Assembly (NCBI RefSeq): GCF_003851885.1
Contig: NZ_BHZE01000013.1
Location: 1-64,000, forward strand
Direction of reading: 5' to 3'
DNA length: 64,000 nucleotides
Origin: Thermaurantimonas aggregans
GTDB taxonomy: Bacteria; Bacteroidota; Bacteroidia; Flavobacteriales; Schleiferiaceae
Shown here: positions 38,419-46,867 of the stretch, in pieces
How positions within the stretch are numbered: position 1 is the stretch's first letter
How the letters are laid out: each line of letters begins with the position of its first letter
The notes under the pieces: model-generated
Told to the model about the DNA's origin: nothing
Seen by the model: only the letters and a program-made list of their open reading frames with translations
Databases searched by the model: none
Program-made: the position numbers and the translations under genes

Positions 38419-38462
38419 CTAAGAATAAAAAATCCCGGTCACCTTTACAGGTTTAACCGGGA
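38419..38462 (-). terminator. Terminator of the TonB-dependent receptor gene
   Basis: A 7-bp stem TCCCGGT/ACCGGGA (38433-38439 with 38456-38462) around a 16-nt loop, followed on the minus strand by T6 and further AT-rich sequence. It lies 31 nt after the receptor stop. Confidence 0.8.
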
Positions 38463-38493: not shown

Positions 38494-40908
38494 TTAAAAC
38501 CCGATAGTGATGTTTAACAACCAATTTCGAGTGGCTTGAGGGAAGATAAAAGCCACACCTTCGTAAACATAACCATTAGATGCGTAGAGGGAAGAGAAGA
38601 GATTGTTTACAAAGAGGTTTATTGACAGCTCTTTACACCATTTGGCGGGAATTTGTGCTGTGATGCGGGCATCTGTCACTTGATAGGGATTCAGGCTTAA
38701 GGCTCTATTTCCGGTGTTGTCGAGATATTGACGGCCTACGAAGCGATGAATAAGAGATGCGGATATGCCTTTAACGAGGTGATAGGTTAGTCCGGCTTGT
38801 ACGATCTCGCCCGCTGAAAGGGCAATAGGTGTATTACCTAAAGCTATTATGGTCGTATCGTTGAAGGCTTCCTTCCAATCGATGTTTTTGTGCTGTGAAA
38901 GGCTTGCGTTAGCAAAGGCTTCCCAATTGCCTTTTTTGTAAGTGGTTGCCAATTCAACACCTGTGCGATAGCTGCGGCCCACATTTCTGCGCAGTGCGAA
39001 GCCCACGTCGGTAAGTTCGCCAGTCACTACGAGCTGATTGTAGTAATCCATGTAAAAGGCATTAGCCTCCATGTAAAAAGTACCTGACTGCCAGCGAGCA
39101 CCGAGTTCGTAGTCAATGAGTTGCTCTGGTTTTGGTAATTCGGTATTCTCTAGGTAGTCGCGACGCGCGGGTTCTCTATGCGCTACAGCTACCGAACCGT
39201 ACACATCCAAGCCTTTTGCCATCTTGTAGTACAGACCAGCCTTAGGATTAAAAAAGGGAAGTCTATCATTTACATTGATGACGTTTTGGTTGCGGTCGAT
39301 CCCTTGTCCGGTGTAGGTCACCAGGCGATATTGTAGGTCGCCATAGAGAAACCATTTGTCATTTAATTGATAATCAGTTCTTACAAAGGCAGTATAATCG
39401 CGTTTACGGGCATCGTTGAAATAGAAGCGTTGATAGGGATTGAGCACTCCGCTATAGCGTGCCCAAATAATTTCGCCGAAGTGGTCGCCCAAATAATCGT
39501 AGTATGACAGACCGCCTACTACATTCCAACCGGCATTTTCATATCTCAAAGTAGCTGAGGCAACATACAAGTCGTTGTCAAGCCAAAGTCTGCGCACGAG
39601 GTCAGTTCTGTGCACGGTATCTGCACCCATGAGCATAGGAGGCAGATTGTAGCGCGAGAGGCGATCGTTTTGCCGAAACTGTTCGTAAAAGCCTGCTCCT
39701 CTGGTGTAGTTGGCTGTAAAGTGCGCCGACCAGGTATCGTTGAAGGCATGGCGCACGTGCAGCTGATAGTGTTGCTGGCGGTAGTTGTCCACCTCATCGC
39801 GGTAGAAGTCTACCGGTTCCCATTGGTCGTTGTATTTAACTCCGGCGAAGTTGAATTTTCGTCCATAAAGACCAATAGAGGCACTGTCAATGCCGTACCA
39901 AGCTTGGTAGGTGATTTCCTGACCTCCAAAAGACACAAGACGCACCGACGTTTTTTCGCCTAGCCAATGGAGATTAAACATCCACGCTTGCAGGTTACTC
40001 GTGGCGCGATCGATGTAACCATTGCTCTGAATACGCGATATTCTGCCGTCTAATACCCAACGATCCTTTAGTACTCCAGTGCCGAATTTGGCAGTCAAAC
40101 GACGTGTGTTAAAGCTGCCGGCTCCAAGAATACCTTCGGCATACGCCTCACGGCGAGGTTGATCGGTTTCGATGTTGATACTTGCACCAAAGGCTCCCGG
40201 ACCATTGACCGATGTTCCAACCCCTCGCTGAATTTGAGCCGATTGTGCAGAACTGATCAAATCAGGCATGTTTACCCAAAAAACTCCTTGACTCTCAGCG
40301 TCATTGATGGTAACCCCGTTTACAGTGACATTGATACGAGTAGGGTCGCTGCCGCGTATTCGAAGGCCTGTGTATCCAATGCCCGCTCCTGCGTCAGAAA
40401 ACGAAACAACACCGGGTACGTTTTCGAGCACTACAGGTATGTCGCGACCGTCGTTCAGCTTTGTGAGTTCAGCTTTTTCTATTCGGGTCTGAGCTACAGG
40501 AGTCGTACTCAGAGCTCGGTAAGCTGAAACATCTACCGCGCTTAGGTACTCCATCAAAGGTGTCATCAGTAGCTGAATGTTTGATTTTGACCACGTGATT
40601 TGAGTTGTTAATACCCTATACCCGTCAGCCTCGAGAATTACCTGTGCCGTGCGAAAGACTTTGTTTAGACAGGCCTTGCCCTCATAATCAGAGGGCAATC
40701 GCTCACCCGTAGATGGCACAAAGACAGATACGCCCTCTAATGGACGACCATTAGCAGCATCCCGAATCACCAAACACAGTCCTGATTGAGCTGAGGCTGT
40801 GGAGAAGAATCCAAAAAAGGCCATTGTAAAGGCCCACGCCCTACCGAAAAGGGCCACAGCAGATATACCTGATAGCTGCTGCACACTGTACCGTTGTACT
40901 TTTCTCAT
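38494..40908 (-). CDS. TPP-riboswitch-controlled TonB-dependent receptor, probably thiamine uptake
   Basis: About 804 aa. Signal peptide to about residue 41 (STASAQ), then a carboxypeptidase-regulatory-like domain (about 43-115), the plug (about 140-250: IPVVLENVPGVVSFSDAG, then GLRIRGSDPTRINVTVNGV) and a 22-strand-type barrel ending in an aromatic strand (LLNITIGF). It imports a ligand across the outer membrane using TonB-ExbB-ExbD energy. A clear TPP riboswitch upstream shows thiamine control, so thiamine or a precursor is the likely ligand; comparable thiamine-regulated receptors of Bacteroidota have been called Omr1. I prefer ATG 40908 over GTG 40929. It is a single-gene unit. Confidence 0.9.
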   Translation of the reverse strand: MRKVQRYSVQQLSGISAVALFGRAWAFTMAFFGFFSTASAQSGLCLVIRDAANGRPLEGVSVFVPSTGERLPSDYEGKACLNKVFRTAQVILEADGYRVLTTQITWSKSNIQLLMTPLMEYLSAVDVSAYRALSTTPVAQTRIEKAELTKLNDGRDIPVVLENVPGVVSFSDAGAGIGYTGLRIRGSDPTRINVTVNGVTINDAESQGVFWVNMPDLISSAQSAQIQRGVGTSVNGPGAFGASINIETDQPRREAYAEGILGAGSFNTRRLTAKFGTGVLKDRWVLDGRISRIQSNGYIDRATSNLQAWMFNLHWLGEKTSVRLVSFGGQEITYQAWYGIDSASIGLYGRKFNFAGVKYNDQWEPVDFYRDEVDNYRQQHYQLHVRHAFNDTWSAHFTANYTRGAGFYEQFRQNDRLSRYNLPPMLMGADTVHRTDLVRRLWLDNDLYVASATLRYENAGWNVVGGLSYYDYLGDHFGEIIWARYSGVLNPYQRFYFNDARKRDYTAFVRTDYQLNDKWFLYGDLQYRLVTYTGQGIDRNQNVINVNDRLPFFNPKAGLYYKMAKGLDVYGSVAVAHREPARRDYLENTELPKPEQLIDYELGARWQSGTFYMEANAFYMDYYNQLVVTGELTDVGFALRRNVGRSYRTGVELATTYKKGNWEAFANASLSQHKNIDWKEAFNDTTIIALGNTPIALSAGEIVQAGLTYHLVKGISASLIHRFVGRQYLDNTGNRALSLNPYQVTDARITAQIPAKWCKELSINLFVNNLFSSLYASNGYVYEGVAFIFPQATRNWLLNITIGF

Positions 40909-40926
40909 GATTAACTGATGGTTAAT
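40902..40926 (-). repeat. Inverted repeat across the receptor start codon
   Basis: TGATTAAC and GTTAATCA form a perfect 8-bp stem with a 5-nt loop; the final A of the stem is the A of the ATG at 40908. It could fold over the ribosome landing site when the riboswitch is occupied. Confidence 0.5.
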
Positions 40927-40976
40927 CACAAGTAACAGGGGCGGTTACCCGTGTGCATTAAACAATGTAAAGAGCC

Positions 40977-41066
40977 ATCTCATCCCTTGGCGGCATTACC
41001 CGCCCAGGTTCAATGGGTGTAATCTCAGCCGGAGCATCGCGCGCCTACTCCAGCACCCCTTGAGAT
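40977..41066 (-). ncRNA. TPP riboswitch (THI element)
   Basis: Read on the minus strand, P1 is ATCTC (41062-41066) pairing with GAGAT (40977-40981). Inside are the invariant pieces in order: GGGGTGC, GGCTGAGA, ACACCC, TGAACCTG, GGTAATGCC, AAGGGA. This is the full thiamine-pyrophosphate aptamer. It lies 68 nt upstream of the receptor ATG; the intervening sequence can form small hairpins that could act as the expression platform. Confidence 0.95.
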
Positions 41067-41072
41067 CGATGG

Positions 41073-41080
41073 CAAAGGTA
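41073..41080 (-). promoter_or_regulatory. -7 element upstream of the TPP riboswitch
   Basis: TACCTTTG on the minus strand, 6 nt before the first base of the aptamer P1 stem. A TTG occurs at 41104-41106 but with a 23-bp spacer, longer than usual. Confidence 0.6.
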
Positions 41081-41127: not shown

Positions 41128-42123
41128 TTAAAAATTCACCATCAGGTTACAACCGCGCGCTTCGGCATGGTCGTAACGGCCCAATACATCGAATTTACCA
41201 TCGGGTTGTACCCGCCCTACATCCTGAGTGGCAATAAAAGAACAGCTATATACATTCGCCAAATCGATTACATGCAAGAGTCCGGTGTTGTTATACGTGA
41301 AGGACCCGAGCGGGTCGTTGATGTTTCGAGCTAAAACACGCATCCAGGGAACGGTAGCAAAGGGCAAGGAGCCAATTTTGTAAGCTTGTGAGAGCAGTTC
41401 GGTCATTCCGTATTCTGAGTCAATGCGCAGAGGGTGAAGCCGATCGGTCAAAATACGATGTACCTCTTCGCGAATCATTTCTCGCCTTCGCCCTTTCATT
41501 CCGCCTGTTTCGAGAAGTATAGTACTCGGAAGTTCTAATGTGTAGCTATCGGCTAAATCGAGTAGAGCGAAGGTTACACCTACCAACAGAGTTTTCTGGT
41601 TTTCTCTATGTAAAATTTTTAATCGGCGCACAAGTTCCTCATATTCATTTAAGAAAAACCCGTTCAACGGATGTGCACTCAGTTTCATCAAGTGATTTAC
41701 CATATACACCAATGAGGAATCCTGGCGCTCGAGATAGGAAGGCAAAAGGCCTAAGATGCAAAATTCTTCAGGCTCTCCGTAAAAAAGCCGAAATCCGGCC
41801 GTTAAACTCTTTTCGTACCAATCAAGGTCAGCTATATAATGACTCGAGGGCACTGAACCAGTAGTGGTACTGCTTCTAAAAATGGTTTGATAGGTATTAT
41901 TTTCGGTAAGAATTCGAAATTTTTTAAACATTTCGATTGGCAGAAAGGGTATTTGCTCTACACTTTTGACGGATGAGGCATTAATGCCCAACCCTTCCAC
42001 AAACATTCGATAAACTTCGCAATGGGCATATTGAAAATCAAAAACTTTCAATGCCTTTTCGATGAATAATTCGTCTGTAAGCTCTGTTATAATTTCTGAC
42101 GGTGTGAAAAATGACGCTTCCAA
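41128..42123 (-). CDS. LuxE-like acyl-protein synthetase / acyltransferase
   Basis: 331 aa, resembling the LuxE domain of long-chain fatty acid-protein ligases (adenylate-forming superfamily). Visible segments: PFLPIEMFKKFRI, the T/S-rich loop FRSSTTTGSVPSSHY, LLETGGMKGRRREM, DSEYGMTELLSQAY (motif like the A5 YGMTE) and GRYDHAEARGCNL. The Cys at residue 325, six from the end, is placed like the acyl-accepting Cys near the C-terminus of LuxE. No luxCDAB genes are near. Only TTG (42123) is available as a start, since an in-frame stop lies just upstream. Its substrate is unknown, perhaps an acyl group for cell-surface polymers. Confidence 0.75.
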   Translation of the reverse strand: MEASFFTPSEIITELTDELFIEKALKVFDFQYAHCEVYRMFVEGLGINASSVKSVEQIPFLPIEMFKKFRILTENNTYQTIFRSSTTTGSVPSSHYIADLDWYEKSLTAGFRLFYGEPEEFCILGLLPSYLERQDSSLVYMVNHLMKLSAHPLNGFFLNEYEELVRRLKILHRENQKTLLVGVTFALLDLADSYTLELPSTILLETGGMKGRRREMIREEVHRILTDRLHPLRIDSEYGMTELLSQAYKIGSLPFATVPWMRVLARNINDPLGSFTYNNTGLLHVIDLANVYSCSFIATQDVGRVQPDGKFDVLGRYDHAEARGCNLMVNF

Positions 42124-44691: not shown

Positions 44692-45513
44692 ATGAGAAAA
44701 GCGCTCTCTATTTTGACACTCTCAGCTGGTATGCTGATGTTTACTTTCAATGCTTCTTACGCTCAAGAAGACACCGCTAAAACAGAGCAAACTGAGCAGA
44801 CAGAGCAGACATCGACAGCATCCGCACCTCAAACCGAAACAGCCTCTGAAGAAGCTACAGCTGAAGACACTAAGACTTTCCACCAAATTATTAAAGAAAA
44901 ATTTATAGAAGGTGGTCCAGAGTTCATGGGAATTGTATTGATTTCACTGATTCTTGGTCTGGCCATCAGCATCGAAAGAATCATATATCTCAACCTTGCT
45001 AATACAAACAATGAAAAACTGATTGCCAACGTAGAGCAAGCTCTGAACAGCGGAGGTATCGATAAGGCAAAAGAAGTCTGCCGCAATACTCGTGGTCCGG
45101 TTGCTTCAATCTTCTATCAAGGTCTTGACAGATATCATGAAGGTATCGACATCGTAGAGAAATCAATTGTATCGTACGGTGGAGTGATGATGGGTCAGCT
45201 CGAAAGAGGTGTATCTTGGATTTCGCTCTTTATCGCTCTTGCCCCAATGCTTGGGTTCATGGGTACGGTAATCGGTATGATTCAGGCATTCGACGCCATC
45301 GAAGCTGCAGGTGACATTTCTCCGTCACTGGTAGCAGGTGGTATCAAGGTGGCTCTTTTGACCACAGTATTTGGTCTTATAGTAGCAATGATTCTTCAGA
45401 TATTCTATAACTACATCATTGCTAAAATTGACAGCATCACCAACTCAATGGAAGAAGCTTCCATCTCATTGATCGATTTACTTGTGAAGTACAATCACAA
45501 GCATGGTAAATAA
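44692..45513 (+). CDS. exbB: MotA/TolQ/ExbB proton channel protein
   Basis: 273 aa. A signal-like first helix (about 7-24) and a low-complexity Glu/Thr segment (TEQTEQTEQTSTA) precede the family domain. Helices lie at about 78-98, 178-198 and 222-245. The conserved SLFIALAPMLGFMGTVIGMI and GGIKVALLTTVFGLIVA segments line the proton path. It works with the two ExbD proteins downstream to energise TonB receptors such as the one at 38.5 kb. The N-terminal extension is common in Bacteroidota. Confidence 0.92.
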   Translation: MRKALSILTLSAGMLMFTFNASYAQEDTAKTEQTEQTEQTSTASAPQTETASEEATAEDTKTFHQIIKEKFIEGGPEFMGIVLISLILGLAISIERIIYLNLANTNNEKLIANVEQALNSGGIDKAKEVCRNTRGPVASIFYQGLDRYHEGIDIVEKSIVSYGGVMMGQLERGVSWISLFIALAPMLGFMGTVIGMIQAFDAIEAAGDISPSLVAGGIKVALLTTVFGLIVAMILQIFYNYIIAKIDSITNSMEEASISLIDLLVKYNHKHGK

Positions 45514-45530
45514 TTAAAAAAATTTGACTT

Positions 45531-45851
45531 ATGATCGACACCGGAATCATACTCACATATATCATGATTGGTATATGTGTGGCCGCCATAGTAGGTTTTG
45601 CAGTTTCTAAGGTGTTTACGCACTTCAGCAAGGTAAAAAATGCACTTATCGGAATAGCTGTATTGCTCGTAATCTTTTTGATTGGCTACTCAATAGCCGA
45701 TGGCAGCGATTACGTAAACTATCCAGCTTCCATGGGCATTACCGAAGCAAAATCAAAAATGGTAGGTACAGGGCTTACTACTTTTTACGTTCTTGCCCTT
45801 CTTTCAGTACTTTCAATTTTGTACGTAGAAGTTTCAAAAATTTTCAAATAA
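45531..45851 (+). CDS. Small three-helix membrane protein between exbB and exbD
   Basis: 106 aa with three hydrophobic segments (about 4-24, 35-54, 80-100). I know of no function. It lies 17 nt after exbB and 1 nt before exbD and is therefore surely translated with them. It occupies a place where Bacteroidota Exb operons often carry an uncharacterised gene. A structural or assembly role in the proton channel is inferred. Confidence 0.75.
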   Translation: MIDTGIILTYIMIGICVAAIVGFAVSKVFTHFSKVKNALIGIAVLLVIFLIGYSIADGSDYVNYPASMGITEAKSKMVGTGLTTFYVLALLSVLSILYVEVSKIFK

Positions 45852-45852
45852 A

Positions 45853-46386
45853 ATGGCCAGAAGAGCAGCCCCGGAGATCAATGCAGGTTCGATGGCAGAT
45901 ATAGCCTTCTTGCTGTTGATTTTCTTCCTCGTTACTACTACAATGGACGTGGACTCTGGTATTTCTCGCAAGCTTCCTCCTTACGATGAGCGTGAACCAC
46001 CAGAAATGCCACCCATTAAGGAGCGCAACATCTTGCGTGTGCTGGTCAATAGCCAAGACCTACTTCTTGTGGACGACCAGTACATGAAACTGGAGGACTT
46101 AAAGGAATACGCCAAAAGACACATCGCTAACTTCGGCAAAGAAGAGAACCTCTCTGAAAGCCCTGAAAAGCACGTGATTTCTTTGCAAAACGATAGAGGT
46201 ACATCATACGAAATGTACATCGCCGTGCAAAATGAATTGACAGCTGCCTACAATGAGCTCAGAGACGAAGAAGCGATGAAGCGCTTCGGACGTAAATTCA
46301 ACCTTCTCGACGAAGCCAGCGCTAAAGAAATAGCCGACTATTACCCGTTGAAAATCTCTGAAGCTGAACCTGTAAAACTCAAATAA
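45853..46386 (+). CDS. exbD: Biopolymer transport protein ExbD/TolR (first copy)
   Basis: 177 aa. One N-terminal helix with the pattern INAGSMADIAFLLLIFFLVTT, where the Asp at residue 16 is the conserved protonatable residue of ExbD. A periplasmic domain of about 140 residues follows, longer than in E. coli ExbD. It begins 1 nt after the 106-aa gene and ends 1 nt before the second exbD. Forms the channel with ExbB. Confidence 0.9.
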   Translation: MARRAAPEINAGSMADIAFLLLIFFLVTTTMDVDSGISRKLPPYDEREPPEMPPIKERNILRVLVNSQDLLLVDDQYMKLEDLKEYAKRHIANFGKEENLSESPEKHVISLQNDRGTSYEMYIAVQNELTAAYNELRDEEAMKRFGRKFNLLDEASAKEIADYYPLKISEAEPVKLK

Positions 46387-46387
46387 T

Positions 46388-46867
46388 ATGTCAAAATTTA
46401 AACGCAAAACAGGTAAAAGCCAGCCCGCCATATCAACAGCATCACTGCCTGACATAGTTTTCATGCTTCTGTTCTTCTTCATGGTTACTACCGTAATGCG
46501 TGAAGTTACCCTTCTGGTGCAGAACAGAAAGCCCTTTGCCACAGAGGTAGTGAAGCTTGAGCGCAGATCGCTGGTTTCGTACATTTATGTTGGTCCTCCG
46601 ATCAAATCGCTCCAAGCACAATTTGGTACTGAGCCACGCATACAGCTCAACGACCAATTTGCCACACTCAACGATATAGGTCCCTATATTACAGACGAAA
46701 GAGAGCGCAGAAATGAGGCTGAAAGACCGCTTATGACCGTGTCTATTAAAGCCGACAAGACTGTAAAAATGGGATTGATAACCGACCTAAAATTTGAATT
46801 GCGCAGAGCTCAAGCCCTTAAGATTAACTATTCAACAGTGAAAGGTAAACCCTTCGGGGATAATTAG
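46388..46867 (+). CDS. exbD: Biopolymer transport protein ExbD/TolR (second copy)
   Basis: 159 aa with a basic N-terminus (KFKRKTGK) and a single helix with TASLPDIVFMLLFFFMVTT; Asp22 is the conserved channel residue. The periplasmic part is distinct from the first copy, so the pair may form a mixed dimer in the ExbB pore. It starts one base after the first copy. A terminator lies 20 nt after the stop. Confidence 0.9.
   Translation: MSKFKRKTGKSQPAISTASLPDIVFMLLFFFMVTTVMREVTLLVQNRKPFATEVVKLERRSLVSYIYVGPPIKSLQAQFGTEPRIQLNDQFATLNDIGPYITDERERRNEAERPLMTVSIKADKTVKMGLITDLKFELRRAQALKINYSTVKGKPFGDN

Follow-up and report, generated by a model that had tools for sequence, protein, structure and literature searches.

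A TPP riboswitch with a collapsed J4/5 loop precedes a proposed thiamine receptor gene in Thermaurantimonas aggregans

A TonB-dependent receptor of Thermaurantimonas aggregans would, with a probability of roughly 0.75, be the outer-membrane entry by which a predicted thiamine auxotroph takes up vitamin B1; it would be under a translational riboswitch and feed a PnuT carrier, a NadR-like kinase and ThiL. Its role as a regulated thiamine importer is well supported, the substrate being read from gene context rather than from the binding site. The riboswitch before the gene is a variant of the thiamine pyrophosphate (TPP) aptamer, in which the J4/5 loop is replaced by a covarying base pair. The features lie in the window, i.e., the whole stretch of 64,000 nucleotides that was analyzed (contig NZ_BHZE01000013.1, positions 1 to 64,000), and their coordinates are given in Table 1.

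Table 1. Features of the receptor gene, its leader and its flanks in the window.
Feature	Position	Strand	Basis
TPP (THI-element) riboswitch aptamer, variant form	40966..41070	(-)	RF00059, 56.0 bits
AGGGGU, P2 5' strand, complementary to the H1 loop	41055..41060	(-)	sequence
P4-P5 with collapsed J4/5, CCU-G-GGCGG-GUAAUG-CCGCC-A-AGG	40985..41008	(-)	sequence and comparison with relatives
H1, proposed anti-sequestor hairpin, loop CGCCCCU	40927..40953	(-)	leader comparison and folding
H2, proposed sequestor hairpin, 3' arm with start codon 40908-40906	40904..40932	(-)	leader comparison and folding
TonB-dependent receptor, 804 aa, proposed thiamine receptor (OMthi/Omr1-like)	38494..40908	(-)	domains, homologues, model
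Bacteroidota sigma-A -7 box TACCTTTG (TAnnTTTG)	41073..41080	(-)	recurrence and consensus (PMC9723704)
Intrinsic terminator 3' of the receptor, TCCCGGT...ACCGGGA then TTTTTT	38427..38462	(-)	sequence

The original prediction placed a TPP riboswitch before the receptor gene, and the Infernal search bore this out. The RF00059 match found by cmscan scored 56.0 bits, above the gathering threshold of 54.3 bits (E = 2.7e-8 in the window search, 2.7e-10 in the genome search), and this receptor-leader element is the one RF00059 match in the whole genome (2.67 Mb, 99.9% complete). The receptor start codon lies 57 nt beyond the end of the Rfam match and about 69 nt beyond P1. Besides scoring over the Rfam cut-off, the element resembles the E. 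coli thiM/thiC riboswitches (RF00059) in having P2, P3, the UGAGA T-loop, P4, P5 and the UAAU of L5, and it keeps the pyrimidine-sensing GGGGUG and UGAGA. On the other hand, it has a base pair in place of the internal AU/CG loop that separates P4 from P5, and its platform is built around the start codon, with an H1 loop complementary to P2. The best RF00059 match was above the gathering threshold in 17 of 79 genomes and below it in most relatives; many such elements fall under the Rfam cut-off and can therefore slip past routine annotation.

A thiamine receptor controlled by a TPP riboswitch is an already known arrangement, OMthi/Omr1. As in the split operon of B. thetaiotaomicron, which encodes OMthi (BT2390), a lone receptor stands behind a TPP riboswitch and PnuT lies elsewhere (PMC5613172). 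The window receptor likewise has a plug and a barrel, a riboswitch conserved upstream of its homologues, and PnuT linkage in relatives, a likeness of domains and gene context. The window host differs in being without any thiamine biosynthesis, in having a kinase that is NadR-like rather than Tnr3, and in the collapsed J4/5 of its aptamer. In B. thetaiotaomicron, genetics shows both OMthi and PnuT to be important for growth when thiamine is low, and a biosynthesis mutant needs more thiamine once OMthi is deleted (PMC5613172). OMthi transcripts in that species are unchanged with thiamine (PMC5613172), which would fit translational control without proving it.

With a covariance model, a TPP riboswitch was found directly upstream of the receptor in 78 of 80 named Bacteroidota homologue loci (79 riboswitch matches, two of them in one locus). 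In all such comparisons, genomes of one family are not independent, and some of the search counts are counts among the matches listed. The two loci with no match start 64 and 2 bases before the receptor match. A strict sequence pattern had recovered 35 of 78, and the apparent absence of the riboswitch from named loci was thus an artefact. Most relatives also have the riboswitch followed by a homologous receptor. At seven loci (L083, L085, L096, L100, L077, L081 and L082), a second TonB-dependent receptor family (cluster c7) is found near the thiamine receptor.

The receptor itself matches the plug (41.6 bits) and beta-barrel (96.5 bits) domains over the Pfam cut-offs. Plug and CarboxypepD_reg-like domain had both been called intact; the plug stands, and the CarboxypepD_reg-like domain is sub-threshold (19.7 vs 32.2), with an N-terminal all-beta domain at residues 44–115 of the structural model (mean pLDDT 84.5). 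The overall fold is that of the PqqU/FecA-type TonB-dependent receptors (best match, the PQQ receptor PqqU, 9c4o, TM 0.84 by target length), but identity is 17% over the aligned region, and another ligand is predicted for the window receptor. By receptor, the nearest named relative is Schleiferia thermophila (70% identical).

The gene had been credited with its own promoter and terminator, and we located both. TAnnTTTG is the known sigma-A box consensus of Flavobacterium (PMC9723704), and the box in the window implies a transcription start at about 41068, at aptamer P1. Boxes of the TACCTTTG type recur 5–18 nt upstream of the aptamer in 31 of the 38 riboswitches compared. The terminator was missed by a consensus terminator scan owing to the loop limit of that scan. 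No thiamine gene was recognized among the neighboring genes examined, in agreement with the earlier claim that none is nearby. A LuxE-like acyl-protein synthetase gene (41128–42123, same strand) ends 57 nt upstream of the aptamer, and one ExbB-like and two ExbD-like genes (44692–46867, opposite strand), possibly encoding a TonB energizing complex, lie 4–6 kb from the receptor.

Searches of the host genome gave no match to ThiC or ThiD, none over the cut-off to ThiE, and none to thiamine pyrophosphokinase with either of two models, and the pyrophosphokinase is missing throughout the host's family. ThiL is retained. The host is consequently predicted, from its gene content, to be a thiamine auxotroph; with ThiC, ThiD, ThiE and the pyrophosphokinase missing and ThiL kept, only intact thiamine or its phosphates would be usable. 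Uptake of thiamine, a precursor or a degradation product had been predicted. Of these, thiamine import is the well-supported part, on the strength of the riboswitch linkage, the linkage of PnuC and kinase in relatives, and the lost synthesis. Precursor or degradation-product uptake appears unlikely in this genome, YjbQ lying outside the search, since neither ThiE nor ThiD turned up, which would leave the host no means of joining the parts. More broadly, a receptor for another vitamin, or for a precursor or breakdown product (HMP, aminopyrimidine, thiazole), would agree with the ThiE-like gene that some relatives keep under a second TPP riboswitch; we judge it very unlikely, given the missing synthesis genes and given that ThiL, the one remaining known step, needs thiamine monophosphate. 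Four genomes without ThiC (loci L071, L089, L094 and L098 of G003, G019, G024 and G038) have a second TPP riboswitch, of canonical form, which stands before an operon with methyltransferase, AIRS/ThiL-like, ThiE-like and Trm112-like genes.

Which proteins could carry imported thiamine to ThiL? The host genome encodes one PnuC-family carrier (NMN_transporter, G000:C5:89574-90098, 141 bits) and an AAA_28-family kinase. Receptor, carrier and kinase lie on three contigs, i.e., the set is dispersed in this genome, and even a permissive search found no riboswitch near the host's own PnuC gene. Among relatives, PnuC lies less than 150 bp from the AAA_28 kinase in 41 genomes. The kinase adjoins PnuC or lies within 8 kb of the riboswitch in 59 compared genomes, a count that is a description and not an independent test, as the kinases counted had been selected by their score and position. 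Within the host's family, 44 genomes that lack ThiC have both PnuC and the kinase, and the two ThiC-bearing genomes have neither. Furthermore, G003 and G039 (loci L072 and L099) each have a second PnuC gene directly after a TPP riboswitch, with an acyl-CoA-dehydrogenase-like gene behind it.

A NadR-like kinase together with PnuC is the textbook pair for nicotinamide riboside. The modeled protein has a kinase fold and a P-loop, and its nearest match is the ribosylnicotinamide kinase domain of NadR (AAA_28; best PDB match 8x7f, TM 0.72 by query length, E = 5.5e-13), from which it differs in standing alone, in lying beside PnuC and the thiamine receptor in relatives, and in having thiamine as its proposed substrate. 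It could be argued that carrier and kinase handle nicotinamide riboside here too and that their linkage to the thiamine receptor is fortuitous, as the nearest solved relatives of the kinase are NadR kinases and PnuC was first known for that compound. We find this unlikely in view of the position of the kinase in the 59 compared genomes, the absence of both genes from the two ThiC-bearing family members, the TPP riboswitch immediately before PnuC in G003 and G039, and the family-wide lack of thiamine pyrophosphokinase. Since the pyrophosphokinase is missing and ThiL is present, thiamine kinase is the most economical role for the AAA_28 protein, and the gene context makes it a likely thiamine kinase that feeds ThiL. 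It would then fill in the missing enzyme of a thiamine-importing family that has no known pyrophosphokinase. Similarly, gene context and phyletic pattern lead us to propose that the PnuC-family carrier is PnuT, specific for thiamine. Apparent PnuC–kinase fusions (L092, L138 and L135) are probably artefacts of start choice, the L092 frame holding only the kinase domain in a Pfam scan. In a relative of another family, a NadR-like kinase is fused to a DUF4301 domain (L144 of G049).

How might the aptamer control the receptor? Two hairpins between the aptamer and the start codon, H1 and H2, are common to the receptor leaders, with free energies in the window of −9.7 kcal/mol for H1 and −10.7 kcal/mol for H2. 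Across 32 leaders, the mean pairing probability of the start codon was 0.81, compared with 0.51 in shuffles and no more than 0.62 in any shuffle set. The covariation scores of H1 and H2 were reached by 0 of 500 shuffles in either case, in counts that relatedness inflates. The two hairpins overlap in bases and therefore compete: when the window was folded with H1 forced, the start codon was paired with a probability of 0.03–0.25, and when H2 was formed, with a probability of 1.0. These results indicate a two-hairpin platform that buries the start codon, i.e., translational control. Transcription termination instead of start-codon hiding, common elsewhere among TPP riboswitches, is most improbable here, because no terminator is seen between the window aptamer and the start codon and because the start codon lies inside the conserved platform. 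The mechanism of Bacteroidetes TPP riboswitches has been regarded as uncertain (PMC5613172), and the conserved start-codon hairpins offer a concrete translational model for it. The CCCC of the H1 loop is complementary to the invariant GGGG of aptamer P2, and we infer a contact between the two that would favor H1 when no ligand is bound; as both sides are nearly invariant, this contact is beyond the reach of covariation. A few Flavobacteriaceae-like leaders (L233 and L257) have an extra hairpin with a T run.

It is likely, then, that with enough of the sensed B1 metabolite the aptamer folds and holds its GGGG strand in P2, whereupon H2 would form over the start codon and block translation. Under scarcity of that metabolite, GGGG would be able to pair with the CCCC loop of H1, and H1 would then take the 5' arm of H2 and free the start codon. 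The receptor made in this way would import thiamine, the PnuC-family carrier (PnuT) would move it over the inner membrane, the NadR-like P-loop kinase would make thiamine monophosphate, and ThiL would make TPP. The model joins what was computed, namely the riboswitch and its recurrence before the receptor, the two covarying hairpins, the collapse of J4/5, the absence of biosynthesis genes and the linkage between genes, with a putative substrate, kinase role, ligand and GGGG–CCCC contact.

TPP riboswitches are a textbook case of an RNA that recognizes the phosphate tail of its ligand. Canonical aptamers have, between P4 and P5, an internal loop of AU opposite CG that includes C77 and G78 of E. 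coli thiM. These two nucleotides hydrogen-bond the pyrophosphate, and together with G60 they hold its metal (PMC7824784, PMC3764141); both are highly conserved within the class (PMC3764141). The original prediction that all conserved parts of the aptamer are present was wrong on this point, as the pyrophosphate-contacting loop has collapsed: one nucleotide is lost on each side, the remaining ones are paired, and the unpaired C77 and G78 of J5/4 are absent from the window aptamer. Their loss weakens the claim of TPP sensing and leaves the homology to the RF00059 class unaffected.

The collapsed J4/5 was found by script in 27 of 38 receptor leaders of relatives and in 13 of 78 named ones, with a few intermediates. 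The remaining receptor leaders are mostly canonical, and many leaders (Dyadobacter, Sphingobacteriales and others) keep the canonical loop before the receptor. All 15 non-receptor TPP riboswitches compared are canonical; they comprise nine thiC elements (two of which, L097 and L011, were scored by eye and not by the script), four before the methyltransferase/ThiL-like/ThiE-like operon, and two before PnuC. Four genomes (G003, G019, G024 and G049) carry both forms. A phylum-wide search, with a pattern that fixes length and flanks and demands no pairing, gave one match each in 35 of 396 genomes and none in the reversed control. Among 30 collapsed loci examined, 29 precede the receptor family (E at most 1e-161), and one, L229 of G420, precedes a THI4-like thiazole synthase gene, for which reason we dropped the notion that the collapsed loop is exclusive to receptors. 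The new J4/5 pair (GC, CG, AU or GU) is formed in 17 of 17 distinct sequences from the phylum search, which serves as a check on a first P5 covariation count that used sequences chosen partly for pairing. A limited literature search found no earlier description of the collapsed J4/5, and a prior description is possible.

Could the loss of this loop have changed what the riboswitch senses? We consider it fairly likely that the element is an ordinary TPP sensor and that the collapsed J4/5 is another structural solution, which binds TPP equally well or more weakly: the window element scores over the Rfam cut-off, the genes under control are thiamine genes, and the same receptor family is served by canonical and collapsed forms in different lineages. 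Against this stand the high conservation of C77 and G78 within the class (PMC3764141) and the fact that they are lost mainly before receptors. A changed ligand, whereby the variant would read thiamine or its monophosphate, or accept them roughly as well as TPP, is a tentative possibility; the receptor would then respond to the vitamin as imported or partly processed, and not to the finished cofactor. Such a change is suggested by the pyrophosphate and metal contacts of the missing nucleotides (PMC7824784, PMC3764141), by the single-nucleotide loss per side with the rest paired in every distinct sequence of a search that demanded no pairing, by the retained GGGGUG, UGAGA and L5 UAAU, and by the canonical form of all non-receptor elements, some of them in the same genomes. 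However, the L229 variant precedes a biosynthesis gene, where TPP feedback is expected, many receptor leaders keep the canonical loop, and the pocket might be rebuilt with a G.A pair and metals. That the receptor-linked element is a separate, pyrophosphate-blind class that senses thiamine or thiamine monophosphate seems rather doubtful; if true, Bacteroidota would use two related RNA sensors, a canonical TPP sensor on synthesis and a phosphate-blind one on uptake. As a natural, conserved form without the phosphate-gripping loop, found mostly before B1 receptors, the variant allows the requirements of the sensor to be tested directly, and it may reveal a new ligand. Five receptor riboswitches with a canonical J4/5 (L070, L085, L096, L100 and L147) have an extra stem between the ACCC and ACCU segments, and most of the receptors behind them are more divergent.
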